Positions 28,896-33,797 of a stretch of DNA of 36,797 nucleotides are shown here, one piece after another (within the stretch, counting starts at the first letter, position 1; each line of letters begins with the position of its first letter). This DNA is from a virus. The stretch spans positions 1 through 36,797 of IMG/VR virus record IMGVR_UViG_3300035703_000229, one strand, 5' to 3'. Made by a program: the position numbers and the translations under genes. The notes beneath the pieces are model-generated. The model was not told the DNA's origin and made no database searches. It was given only the letters and a program-made list of their open reading frames with translations.

Positions 28896-29102
28896 TTAGT
28901 TTACTAAATATAGATACTTGTTCCATCCGCCATCTTTTTGGTCAACTTCCAAAGTAAAACTCATTCCCTTTATAAATTCCTTTTTCATTTTTGCTTCATC
29001 CTTTATTTTAGCCAATTCAAACGCTGGCAATTCACTTTCAAATTCAAATGAATCATACCATTTACCTGTATATTTGAAAAATTCTACTTTTACTTTTGTC
29101 AT
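28896..29102 (-). CDS. Hypothetical cassette protein, 68 aa
   Basis: A 68-residue protein (MTKVKVEFFKYTGKWYDSFE, PAFELAKIKDEAKMKKEFIK, GMSFTLEVDQKDGGWNKYLY) with beta-helix-beta alternation and no motif known to me. It lies between E5 and E4. Its upstream 45 bases and downstream 30 bases are nearly identical to those of the next cassette upstream (29214-29573), although the proteins are unrelated. The shared leader contains GAAGGAATTATTAACTAAAA, which may hold a ribosome-binding site (GAAGGA). Confidence 0.7.
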   Translation of the reverse strand: MTKVKVEFFKYTGKWYDSFEFESELPAFELAKIKDEAKMKKEFIKGMSFTLEVDQKDGGWNKYLYLVN

Positions 29103-29146
29103 TGTTTTATGTTTTTAGTTAATAATTCCTTCGCTATGCTACTGAT

Positions 29147-29203
29147 GCCTAACACGGGCTAAAACAACATTAAAACGATTGTTTAGCCCGAGAACCGTTA
29201 GGC
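29147..29203 (-). repeat. attC-like inverted repeat E5 (best match to integron boxes)
   Basis: Compact 57-base site. On the minus strand it starts GCCTAACGGTTCTCGGGC and ends TTTTAGCCCGTGTTAGGC. Outer boxes GCCTAAC and GTTAGGC fit RYYYAAC and GTTRRRY exactly and are complementary; inner arms GGGCTAAAC and GTTTTAGCCC pair. The 5' side has three extra bases, an asymmetry like the spacers of attC sites. Confidence 0.85.
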
Positions 29204-29213
29204 ACAATAGCAC

Positions 29214-29947: not shown

Positions 29948-31148
29948 TCATAAAAATTTTAGTTGTATAATCTTTTTTATTTAATACTGCCTTATAAATT
30001 TTATCTTCTATTCCATTTTCAGAAAATATCCAAAAAACATCATTACTTAAACGATTCATAGTTGTAAGTCGATCACGAGATTGCCAGTAAGAAACAGCAC
30101 TAAAATCTATGTTATAATATACTAAGTATTCAGCATTTTTTAAACTAATACCTTCACGACCTGAAACAATTTGTAAAGCAATACATTTATCTGAATTATC
30201 AAATTCTAATAACTCAGTTGTAAGTAAATCTCCATAAATATATTTTAAAGCATTATATTCTTCTTTAAATTTGTAAAATAAGCCTATTTTTTGTCCAAAG
30301 AATTTTTTATAAATAAATTCAGCCTTTGAATAATCAATAACCTTAGAATTTCCACTTTCAAATTTAATTGTTCCTGAATATAACTGATGTAATTTAGTTA
30401 ATAGTTTAGTTGGTGTATCTGCAAGTACTTCTTCTTCTTTGCCTTGTATTACTAAATCATTTTTTAATAAATCAATTACATTGTAAGTTGATTCCTTTAA
30501 TTTAACTCTTAAAACATTTTCATTTACTTTACTTGTAAAACCCGCATTTTGTTGAGTAAATGTAATCATGTAATTTCCTATAACTTTATAGATTAAATCT
30601 TTATTGGCATCTGAATAATCAATGGATTCACCATAAGATACATAAAGAATTTTTTTATTTACATATTTATCTGCCCATCTATAAAAGTTTTTCTCAGGAA
30701 ATGGTGAGTAATTACTTACCCAAAATTGATGATAAATTTGAGAATAACTTTCAGGATGTGGTGTTCCACTTAAAAATATCATTGGTAAATGACTGTAATT
30801 CTCTTTAATATATTTAGTTACTTTATTAGGTTTAGGAAAAGCACCATTTCTATGATGTTCATCACTAATTAATAAGTCAAAATTACCTTCTATTTTATGT
30901 ATAGATTCATTATTGATAACTGTTAGTTTATAATCATAACCCATTGCTTTATAATCATTCTCAATGCTTGTAATTGCTTTTTTCTTAGTTATGAATAAAA
31001 CATTTTTAGCACGATACAATTTAGCAGTATTTAAAGCCATAATTGTTTTTCCAGTTCTTACTTCAGCAGCAATATAAACTATTTTATAAAGTGCTAATTT
31101 ATTCCATGCTCTGATGGAAATTGCTAATTGATAATCTCTAATTTCCAT
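29910..31148 (-). CDS. SF2 helicase (SNF2/DEAD-like)
   Basis: A 412-residue SF2 helicase or translocase. Walker A AEVRTGKT (28-35), motif Ia VLFITKKKAITSI, Walker B/motif II SDEHH (95-99), motif III FLSGTP (126-130), and in the second domain motif V VSGREGISLKNAEYLVYYNI and motif VI WQSRDRLTTMNR. The N-terminus MEIRDYQLAI is a Q-motif-like start. It resembles phage SNF2-like helicases found with VRR-NUC nucleases, with which it overlaps, suggesting they act together in DNA branch processing or replication. Confidence 0.88.
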   Translation of the reverse strand: MEIRDYQLAISIRAWNKLALYKIVYIAAEVRTGKTIMALNTAKLYRAKNVLFITKKKAITSIENDYKAMGYDYKLTVINNESIHKIEGNFDLLISDEHHRNGAFPKPNKVTKYIKENYSHLPMIFLSGTPHPESYSQIYHQFWVSNYSPFPEKNFYRWADKYVNKKILYVSYGESIDYSDANKDLIYKVIGNYMITFTQQNAGFTSKVNENVLRVKLKESTYNVIDLLKNDLVIQGKEEEVLADTPTKLLTKLHQLYSGTIKFESGNSKVIDYSKAEFIYKKFFGQKIGLFYKFKEEYNALKYIYGDLLTTELLEFDNSDKCIALQIVSGREGISLKNAEYLVYYNIDFSAVSYWQSRDRLTTMNRLSNDVFWIFSENGIEDKIYKAVLNKKDYTTKIFMNDFGIKNTSKIN

Positions 31149-33465
31149 CTTTAAACATTACTATTCTACCACCCATTGAATCATAACTTTTAACGCATTC
31201 AATTTTTTTATATTCGCAATATTTATCAATCCATTGCCAAAATCTTTTTTGTGATAAATTAAACTTTTTCCAATCAGGATAATCTTCTAAAAAAGTATTA
31301 TATAAATAATTTTTTTCAAACCTTTCTTCAAGTTTAATTATACCTTCATTAACCCATTCATAAAATTCAAATGAAGTTTCTTTAATAAATTTTCTTATTT
31401 CTAAATTTTGAAAATCATAAGATACTAAACCATTAATTAAATATAATTGTAAGCATCTTAACATATAGTTGTAAAATCTAATCCATTCTTCATTATCCCA
31501 TTCCTCAAAAAGCATTCTGCCAAATTCATTTAATGGAGTATGCTTTGAAGAAAAATGAGCAGAAAATTCAAGTTCCCATTTTCTACGTTCAAATGATCCA
31601 CCAACCCCACCAATAGTGTAATTTGTGGTAATTAATATTTTAGGAGACTTACTTACTGGTATTTTAAAAGCATCTTTGTTTTTCTTTTCAAGTGTTATAC
31701 CTTCAGTAATAATCGAAAATAGATTTTCAAATTTAAAGTTTTTTTGAACATCATCAAATACTAATATTTGAGTGTCTGCACTTACTGTTTGGTAAGCAAA
31801 TGATTTATCAAAACTAAAAGACTTTCCATTAATATCTGCAACTCTTTTTACCTTACTTAAAGCATTCCAAAATATCCCTTTACCACTACCACCGTTTGGG
31901 TTCTCACTTATTGTTTCATCGTTTAAAATAACAGCTTTATTATTTGCTGATGTTTTAAAAGAATGCATTAAATAACCAATTGTAGTAATTAATGACATTT
32001 CTCTTTGTTCATCTTTATTACTTACTAAATTGATGAATTTTTTAAAATCACATTCTAAATTATCAGTATGTTCAATATTAAAATCAATAATGTGTTTTTT
32101 CCATACAAACCCATCCAAATCAAAATAATCAATCAAATTAATTCCATTCTTTTTTACATTAATAGCACCATTATTAAAATAAATAAATGCTGAATCAATT
32201 GTATCTTCTTTAAATTTTAAGTCAATAGGATCTAATATATTTAAATATTCCTCTTTAAAAAACTTTGAACGGTCTGCTAAAAATTGATATACTAAATGCT
32301 CAGAAGATTGCAGCATTTCATTTAAAACAAAGTCTTTTATTTTAACTTCATTGGTATTATCAACAAGGTTATTTTCTACTTTAACAAAAATAAATGATTC
32401 AGTTCCATCAGGATAATACTTGTAAAATCCATTTGATTGTAACCATAATTTAAAATCATAATGATTAATCTTAACACCCTTTTTTGTAATTTCCCAAAAG
32501 TTAGAAATAGTTGCATCATCTTTAATTATTTTTAATGATTCTTCATCTACATTTGGTAAAGCCTTTTTTATTTCATCAATTTGTTTACCTGACTTAATTT
32601 CTTTTTTAACATAATTGATTGTATCATTATCTTCAAAATATTTCATGCCAAAGTTAGATGCACCACGTTTGTATGCAGAATTAATAATAGTTTCAATTTC
32701 TTTATTATCAAAACCTTCAGTTGCAAACTGGCTGCAAAATCTTAATGATTCTATTTTACTAACTCCAAAGTCAGATAAAGCAGCAGCAAACTTAAATACA
32801 TTAACATTTCTTTGATTAATTATAAGTCCATAATTTTTTTCAAACCAAACATAAAGTCTTTTAATTATCTCATTTTCATTTTGAAGTTTAATTGTTGGTG
32901 CTTTAGATTCATAAGAATATATCTTATTTTCAACTTTTTTATCCCATACTTTAGAATCTTTATTAATATAAATATTAGGATCATAAGATTCAAAACATAC
33001 TCGACTTATATCATTAGTTCCTGAATCAAAATTTTGATTATCAAAATATTCATCTAATGCTTCAAAGTATAATTTATGGTTTTCAGGTTCTTTAGGGATT
33101 TTAACTATTAGCTTTATACCATCACCACTTGGAGAAATAAAACAACTAAAAGTATATTCATTACTTTTTAATTCATTGTAAAAAGCTTTTAAATCGCTTT
33201 CATTTGAATATTTATCAAAGTCTAAGCATATTAGTCCACTATGCTCTAATAATCCATTAGTAGCTCTATTTTTAAATATTCCAGAAAAACAAATAGAAGG
33301 TAAATTGTTTTTAAGTTTATTTCTTAAATCCTTATTGGTTTCTTTTCTAATTTGATTAATTAAATCTTTAGAATTACCATTCTTAATTCTATTTAGGATA
33401 AAGTCAACATCACGAATAAATGGAGTTGAAGTTTCCTTTATGTTTTTAAATATTGTTATTTTCAT
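31138..33465 (-). CDS. Primase-helicase (BT4734/VirE-type)
   Basis: A 775-residue replication protein. The N-terminal BT4734-like primase has catalytic LDFDKY (81-86), SPSGDGIKLIVKI (111-123) and SRVCFESYDP (154-163). A helical linker region with YKRG (VFKFAAALSDFGVS, about 223-236) is PriCT-like. The C-terminal SF3-type helicase has Walker A PNGGSGKG (523-530), Walker B ILVFDDV (567-573), sensor ILITTN (610-615) and an Arg finger in FERRKW (625-630). It would prime and unwind DNA at the phage origin, which probably lies just upstream. It overlaps the helicase gene by 11 bases. Confidence 0.9.
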   Translation of the reverse strand: MKITIFKNIKETSTPFIRDVDFILNRIKNGNSKDLINQIRKETNKDLRNKLKNNLPSICFSGIFKNRATNGLLEHSGLICLDFDKYSNESDLKAFYNELKSNEYTFSCFISPSGDGIKLIVKIPKEPENHKLYFEALDEYFDNQNFDSGTNDISRVCFESYDPNIYINKDSKVWDKKVENKIYSYESKAPTIKLQNENEIIKRLYVWFEKNYGLIINQRNVNVFKFAAALSDFGVSKIESLRFCSQFATEGFDNKEIETIINSAYKRGASNFGMKYFEDNDTINYVKKEIKSGKQIDEIKKALPNVDEESLKIIKDDATISNFWEITKKGVKINHYDFKLWLQSNGFYKYYPDGTESFIFVKVENNLVDNTNEVKIKDFVLNEMLQSSEHLVYQFLADRSKFFKEEYLNILDPIDLKFKEDTIDSAFIYFNNGAINVKKNGINLIDYFDLDGFVWKKHIIDFNIEHTDNLECDFKKFINLVSNKDEQREMSLITTIGYLMHSFKTSANNKAVILNDETISENPNGGSGKGIFWNALSKVKRVADINGKSFSFDKSFAYQTVSADTQILVFDDVQKNFKFENLFSIITEGITLEKKNKDAFKIPVSKSPKILITTNYTIGGVGGSFERRKWELEFSAHFSSKHTPLNEFGRMLFEEWDNEEWIRFYNYMLRCLQLYLINGLVSYDFQNLEIRKFIKETSFEFYEWVNEGIIKLEERFEKNYLYNTFLEDYPDWKKFNLSQKRFWQWIDKYCEYKKIECVKSYDSMGGRIVMFKDGN

Positions 33466-33573
33466 TTAAAAAAATACCAACCAAGTACAAAGGCTTACCC
33501 CACTGCTAAGAAATAGCACTCGGCAATGTAAATGGTTGGATTTTTAAAATATTGTTTTTCATGTGGAGTAAGC
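33466..33573 (-). promoter_or_regulatory. Structured leader with attenuator-like hairpin before the primase
   Basis: The predicted transcript starts about 33573 and runs to the ATG at 33465. Three pairings are visible: A GCTTACTCCAC (33563-33573) with GTGGGGTAAGC (33493-33503); B CCAACCA (33533-33539) with TGGTTGG (33477-33483); and C TGCTA (33514-33518) with TAGCA (33504-33508). A and B interlace (order A, B, A', B'), so they form a pseudoknot or exclude each other. B' is followed by TATTTTTTT and the ATG, so the B stem could act as an intrinsic terminator. A short ORF (33506-33562, MKNNILKIQPFTLPSAIS) lies inside. This suggests RNA-based control of primase. Confidence 0.5.
33506..33562 (-). 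CDS. Possible 18-aa leader peptide
   Basis: The frame ATG AAA AAC AAT ATT ... AGT GCT ATT TCT TAG encodes MKNNILKIQPFTLPSAIS and lies wholly within the structured leader of the primase-helicase. The ATG is about ten bases from the predicted transcription start. Its stop falls in the base of hairpin C. A ribosome here would disturb pairing A or B. Such a short ORF may also be chance; weight depends on the structure. Confidence 0.3.
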   Translation of the reverse strand: MKNNILKIQPFTLPSAIS

Positions 33574-33578
33574 TGATG

Positions 33579-33611
33579 CAAATATATAAAATTATTATTT
33601 ATAAAAACAAA
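33579..33611 (-). promoter_or_regulatory. Consensus promoter of the primase operon
   Basis: The minus strand shows TTTG (33608-33611), 21 bases, then TATATTTG (33579-33586), a full match to the Bacteroidetes promoter form. The start would be near 33573, which is the first base of the long stem A. Predicted to drive primase-helicase, helicase, VRR-NUC and the cassette array behind them. Confidence 0.7.
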
Positions 33612-33633: not shown

Positions 33634-33797
33634 CCACGCTTTACCCCGCTTTCAACACGCTTTTAATTTTGTTAAAACTCTTTATTAATAAGGTTTCAAC
33701 GCTTTCACGCTTTATTTTGCCAAATTTTTACAAAAAAAAACTTTTCAAAAAAATTACATATGCAAGTATATAGGGGGGGTATCTTAATAAAGCGTGG
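33634..33797. repeat. Iteron-like CGCTTT repeats, possible replication origin
   Basis: In 33466-33869, the largest gene-free stretch, the plus strand has five direct copies of a motif ending CGCTTT: CCACGCTTT (33634-33642), CCCGCTTT (33645-33652), ACACGCTTT (33655-33663), CAACGCTTT (33697-33705) and CACGCTTT (33706-33713), plus one inverted copy AAAGCGTGG (33789-33797). A/T tracts and a G7 run (33773-33779) lie among them. Position next to the primase-helicase fits an origin or a regulator's binding array. The base order is seen; function is inferred. Confidence 0.5.

Follow-up and report, generated by a model that had tools for sequence, protein, structure and literature searches.

A leader of ~109 nt between an AT-rich promoter and a primase/helicase-type gene, on the minus strand of a 36,797-base virus record (IMG/VR virus record IMGVR_UViG_3300035703_000229; the whole record is hereafter the window), belongs to a family of 5' leader RNAs, ~100 nt long, in Bacteroidota phages, for which we found no description in Rfam or the open-access literature. 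Since pairing persists in these leaders while their letters change almost completely, the leader very probably functions as an RNA control element. Our main reading, to which we assign a probability of roughly 0.5, is a cis-acting attenuator in which one helix (B) resembles a terminator and the other (A) fastens the transcript's 5' end to the loop of B.

The promoter of the window leader contains a box, TATATTTG (33579–33586, minus strand, as are all parts of the leader), that conforms to the Bacteroidota TAnnTTTG type as given in the cited portions of PMC9723704 and PMC7366714; a possible TTG element (33608–33610), weak and recognized by eye, lies 5' of it with a spacer of 21 nt. The flavobacterial sigma-A consensus TAnnTTTG spans -12 to -5 in the relevant part of PMC9723704, and setting the box at these positions places the predicted transcription start (+1) at 33574, so that the 5' arm of helix A (A1, GCUUACUCCAC, 33563–33573) begins at +2. 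This arm pairs with A2 (GUGGGGUAAGC, 33493–33503) in 11 pairs, including one U.G, with 59 bases separating the arms, which bears out the claim of a preliminary description of this DNA that an 11-base arm at the predicted start pairs with a segment about 60 bases on. Helix B (B1, CCAACCA, 33533–33539; B2, UGGUUGG, 33477–33483) interlaces with helix A and holds A2 within its loop. The same description had placed an interlaced second stem and a T run two bases before the ATG, and this order was also recovered: B2 is followed by UA, a U7 run (33468–33474) of a kind enriched in the survey matches described below, AA, and the ATG at 33465 of the gene, which encodes a 775-aa protein (31138–33465; PF08800, phrog_28855, phrog_18375). 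In the nested fold helix B is lengthened by an A/U run and encloses a 4-bp inner stem (UACA, 33527–33530; UGUA, 33486–33489) and hairpin C (UGCUA, 33514–33518; UAGCA, 33504–33508), the 3' arm of which adjoins A2 directly. A leader ORF of 18 codons plus stop (33506–33562) starts with its ATG exactly at the 3' end of A1. Judged by Bacteroides thetaiotaomicron, whose median 5' UTR is 32 nt in the cited part of PMC7366714, the leader would be long for the phylum.

Two further features of the window were observed. Just upstream of the promoter (33637–33794), AAAGCG repeats occur five times on the minus strand and once on the plus strand within 160 nt, accounting for 6 of the 29 copies in the window; repeats of this type also lie 5' of several relatives, and they are possible initiator or repressor iterons. 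A second strong feature is a minus-strand hairpin at 29134–29213 (MFE -40.3, z -6.3), which precedes a 68-aa ORF (28896–29102); its outer arms, GCCTAAC/GTTAGGC, fit the integron attC core consensus, and both Polaribacter phage P12002L and a plasmid of Tenacibaculum finnmarkense contain copies ~81–83% identical to its core.

The interlaced-helix score of the window leader was matched by none of 100 and none of 50 dinucleotide shuffles in two runs. The nested MFE alone was only mildly unusual (z = -2.0); the signal in the window resides in the pseudoknot. With helix A added, the estimated energy was -41.1 kcal/mol (pseudoknot penalty not included), compared with -27.7 kcal/mol for the nested MFE. 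Helix B of the window was taken from covariation; the automatic scan chose another partner stretch for B in the window sequence only.

Primase homologues were collected from viral and genome contigs; a search of the genome contigs with a single primase protein gave no match, whereas an alignment query did, and a DNA similarity search of the leader region against phage records gave none. The closer primase relatives (mostly above ~60% identity, plus L036, L040, L190, L186 and L135 at ~40–53%) followed the same plan in unrelated letters over the interval from a TAnnTTTG-like box to the gene, and many or most relatives at ~48% identity or lower had no such leader. At L037, L038 and similar primase loci the box lies ~25 nt before the ATG and the leader is absent, so these loci offer natural leader-free comparisons.

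Comparison of the window-type leaders (the window, L001, L237, L243 and L238) revealed that 134 of 135 pair cells were kept, with both sides changed in 12 of 27 pairs. In helix A all 11 pairs were kept in all five leaders and 5 of the 11 had changed on both sides; both arms of helix B and the inner stem entered this count, the inner stem varying as UACA/UGUA, UGCA/UGCA and CACA/UGUG, and 3 of the 5 pairs of hairpin C had both sides replaced. This degree of covariation was reached by 0 of 500 shuffles, and structures slid along the alignment were 24–40% paired. Five L006-type leaders were paired in 93.5% of 124 cells, with changes on both sides in 11 of 25 pairs (6 of 10 in helix A), and six kissing-type leaders in 97.8% of 90 cells; the kissing helix of these six was paired in 42 of 42 cells, and 4 of its 7 pairs had both sides changed. 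Helix B was excluded from the kissing-type (A5) count as it was out of register in the MAFFT alignment, and subfamily A4 was aligned and left out of the counts because it aligned poorly by sequence. The shuffle control is limited by the few sequences per alignment and their shared ancestry; the slid control, together with three unlike subfamilies, is the stronger argument. The preliminary description would have been contradicted by relatives lacking compensatory changes, and such changes were massive. Both helices are supported by this covariation. The window leader was closest to leaders of NUMOD4-HNH-type endonuclease genes.

To survey leaders independently of their structure, we defined a unit as a TAnn[TC]TTG box followed 70–140 nt later by an ORF of at least 45 codons, outside long open frames, and collected units from 29 sets of records (the window, 18 related records, 8 cultured phage records, and loci L237 and L244). 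With 200 shuffles each, 20 of 164 units reached p ≤ 0.005, compared with ~0.8 expected, and 121 had p > 0.5; among the 20 matches, G001 and G007 carry nearly one leader and one match (L226- 9124) looks unlike the family. The bacterial control (239,501 bases, two bacterial MAGs) yielded 0 of 33 units at this threshold. A descriptor scan of whole contigs gave, with some duplicates, 15 matches at scores of -34 or below against 0 in shuffled sets, and 21 against 1.0 at -30 or below. Seven of 13 loci from a pattern scan (L236, L239–L242, L245 and L246) were dropped because they matched other sequence by chance. Among cultured Bacteroidota phages, one of the eight records, that of Flavobacterium phage elemoE_10-3D, had a genuine-looking match; three of the eight had none among the matches listed, and the remaining listed matches look like coding sequence or chance.

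The helices chosen in 31 leaders contained 32 G.T and 8 A.C combinations (p = 1.8e-4) under equal weights in detection, with L001 and L004 dropped as near copies and the remaining leaders not fully independent. Because G.T exceeds A.C, and G.U pairs arise only on the mRNA strand, it is the mRNA strand that folds. This excess largely refutes a reading in which the repeats act at the DNA level, as an origin hairpin or a recombination or protein-binding site, and the RNA fold is irrelevant. The AAAGCG repeats just upstream and the primase nature of the gene would suit such an element, but interlaced repeats cannot form one cruciform, and copies also stand before endonuclease genes with neither AAAGCG repeats nor primase context; we consider it extremely improbable.

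The preliminary description had treated the leader as a primase device. This did not hold, since the same leader type precedes several unlike kinds of gene. In L013 and L020 it sits before a 57-aa ORF that is itself 5' of the primase gene; NUMOD4-HNH proteins are encoded downstream in L237, L238 and L223, an AAA_24 ATPase in L215, and a 128-aa protein with a sub-threshold DUF3310 match in L213. The leader in L051 precedes a protein that starts MIGIYKITNPNGKIYVGQ and resembles a GIY-YIG endonuclease. In elemoE_10-3D, the cultured phage, the leader (MT497078:20242–20367, minus strand) lies 5' of a 61-aa ORF and of genes for a replication protein and a primase/helicase. Analysis of NUMOD4/HNH relatives revealed a suitable box in 18 of 46 distinct upstream regions, 11 of which reached p ≤ 0.005, with the query loci L262 and L277 themselves among the 11; L264, L269, L270, L274 and L318 resemble kissing members by eye. 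One regulatory cassette would link replication genes and mobile homing endonucleases.

A phage record may contain up to three unlike copies of the leader. G006 (L202) has family leaders before genes for an ERF annealing protein, a 265-aa HNH protein and the primase, and the A and B sequences of all three are unrelated, as if the copies were kept from cross-pairing. These copies bear on the possibility that the leader itself makes up a small RNA, transcription mostly stopping at the U run, and that this RNA of ~100 nt acts in trans. A promoter, a compact fold and a terminator-like end all within ~100 nt are what such an RNA would require, but the leader was always directly 5' of a gene in the units tested, no seed is conserved, and the copies within G006 differ completely; we hold this reading to be improbable.

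No nucleotides were conserved across the subfamilies, and comparison of A2, A3 and A5 with each other revealed no column-level conservation in common, as expected for a mechanical element. Because a conserved nucleotide core is missing, a ligand-binding riboswitch of a new class is very improbable, in spite of the structured leader, the pseudoknot and the terminator-like stem that it would share; in addition, there is no conserved unpaired core, helices are freely replaced between subfamilies, and the downstream genes are unrelated. Searches against Rfam 15 at the gathering threshold gave 0 matches for the window, with none in the leader region even at E ≤ 5, and only one tRNA in nine loci with leaders of several subfamilies. 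This agrees with the preliminary description, in which no known riboswitch class was recognized.

Inspection of 33 leaders, picked by structure and by eye and with box-to-start lengths of ~83–128 nt, revealed three forms. In form I, an H-type pseudoknot, A1 is single-stranded and helix A comprises 8–14 bp. In form II, a loop–loop kissing complex of 6–9 bp, two loops pair: A1, which caps a hairpin of its own at the 5' end, and A2 at the apex of B; in L008, L009, L130a, L130b and L198a both loops stay entirely unpaired in the nested MFE, which takes no account of helix A, and are exactly complementary over 6–7 nt. In form III (L016, L034 and L295) the order from 5' to 3' is A2, T run, B2 and ATG. 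L289, L298 and L302 share the form III arrangement by eye, and an inner hairpin with a GGCA loop is common to L016 and L034. As the T run precedes B2 in form III, the second pairing there cannot act on termination, and this form is unexplained by a pure termination model.

A T run was present in 23 of the 33 chosen leaders and in 11 of 131 survey non-matches. Since the 33 had been picked by structure and eye, the count was repeated on the unselected units, where a G run followed by TTTT occurred in 12 of 20 matches and 4 of 131 non-matches (p = 1e-9). B therefore resembles an intrinsic terminator, although its loop is long for one; a simple terminator scan listed no terminator-like site at B of the window. 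The strength of this G-run/U-run signature also weighs against a translational operator, in which the fold closes the initiation region or a phage protein binds it, in the way that gp32 of T4 binds the pseudoknot in its own leader, and no termination takes place. Several observations speak for such an operator: B2 ends 8–26 nt 5' of the start codon in the leaders measured, the loop of form III pairs with sequence just 5' of the ATG, and the T run is missing in some leaders (absent in L036 and weak in L003). There are precedents as well, in that a pseudoknot occurs in a phage replication-gene leader whose T4 and RB69 versions have likewise diverged (cited sections of PMC535899 and PMC3014915), and in T4-like phages stand-alone genes for homing endonucleases are repressed by hairpins (cited sections of PMC3014915). 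However, a protein would find no common sequence to recognize in the leaders, and since the downstream genes encode unrelated kinds of protein, self-regulation by the gene product does not account for every member. On balance we judge an operator unlikely, though by no means negligible.

The leader ORF of 18 codons noted in the preliminary description is present, and the position of its start is often kept: among 20 leaders with a helix A of at least 8 bp, 12 have an ATG at -3 to +1 of the A1 end and two more a GTG nearby, with neither codon in the other six. In kissing-form leaders a start codon at A1 is mostly missing. The peptide itself is unconserved (18 codons in the window versus 21 in L001, with a frame-shifting indel). 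In five leaders the ORF stops within 4 nt of the main ATG; that of the window stops 40 nt before it.

Helices A and B, action on the mRNA strand, use in multiple copies and the terminator-like character of B are supported by the data, and the adjacency of the B/U-run signature to the start codon suggests attenuation. In this attenuator, A1 at the 5' end would pair with A2 in the apical loop of the terminator-like hairpin B, and the closing U run, ~10 nt before the first start codon, would place B where it could halt RNA polymerase, or hamper initiation, just before the gene. Helix A, as a lock, would tune the formation or action of B. In form I, translation initiating at the leader AUG would bring a ribosome over A1, which would undo the lock before the ribosome reached B and so tie downstream expression to translation; attenuation, its direction and this role of the ribosome are what we infer from the arrangement of the parts. 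The preliminary description had offered either a pseudoknot or a choice between antitermination and termination. Covariation upholds the pseudoknot and enrichment the terminator-like stem; a plain either/or is not shown, because A and B share no bases in the members examined and the kissing form holds both hairpins in one fold. We also advance, tentatively and at less than even odds, a more general reading: a new class of sequence-free RNA gate, common to phages and their homing-endonuclease genes, in which the loop of a terminator-like hairpin captures the nascent 5' end, pairing geometry alone controls the outcome, and the copies within a genome can diverge into private, non-cross-reacting locks.

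Hosts of the phylum Bacteroidota have unusual promoters, and their initiation does not rely on Shine-Dalgarno sequences; to our knowledge, RNA-level control in their phages has hardly been described. Text searches of the open-access literature found no description of the leader. Leaders defined by pairing only evade sequence-based motif finders and therefore may be widespread and missed. Because the cultured phage elemoE_10-3D appears to carry the leader, the proposal is directly testable.

Compared with known systems, this cis-acting structured leader is somewhat similar in its working to the gene 32, IncL/M repA, HK022 put and attenuator families, but cannot be assigned to any of them on present evidence. 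The gene 32 operator of T4 and RB69 is similar in being a 5' pseudoknot in the leader of a phage replication protein that has diverged between phages; however, as characterized in the cited sections of PMC535899 and PMC3014915, it is confined to one gene and comprises ~28 nt, with an unstructured initiation region rich in UUAAA on its 3' side, whereas the present family spans ~100 nt, serves many genes and has a terminator-like second stem and a kissing form. The repA leader of IncL/M plasmids (pMU604/pCTX-M3), which in the cited part of PMC8125031 combines a pseudoknot with the leader peptide RepB and the antisense RNA I, likewise places a pseudoknot and a leader ORF before a replication gene, and some ORFs of the phage family end where they may be coupled to the next start. 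In contrast to repA, the phage leaders pair from the 5' end, use a terminator-like stem, precede many genes and encode an unconserved peptide. Homing-endonuclease genes of T4-like phages (mobE, segB and I-TevI) also have RNA structure at their 5' side, described in the cited part of PMC3014915 as simple hairpins over the ribosome site; the phage family instead has, next to the promoter, either a pseudoknot or a kissing complex, and occurs before non-endonuclease genes as well.

HK022 put RNAs resemble the leaders as structured RNAs on early phage transcripts, with more than one per genome and two stem-loops (cited part of PMC9378689), which raises the alternative of a polymerase-modifying, put-like element that would render polymerase resistant to pauses and terminators, or an mRNA-stabilizing 5' element that shields the transcript from 5'-end decay. 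Its start at the promoter of replication-type operons, the several copies per phage and the burial of the 5' end in a helix fit this alternative. However, put RNAs of ~70 nt share their sequence and, in that part of PMC9378689, are not described with a terminator-like end directly before a gene; with put RNAs compared by description, no such similarity was found among copies of the phage leader and none is conserved across its subfamilies, and a terminator-like stem forms the end of the phage leader instead of lying beyond it. We therefore regard this alternative as distinctly unlikely. The leaders share with intrinsic-terminator attenuators a hairpin and U run between promoter and gene; they differ in that no competing antiterminator was seen and, instead, the loop of the terminator-like hairpin pairs with the 5' end of the transcript.
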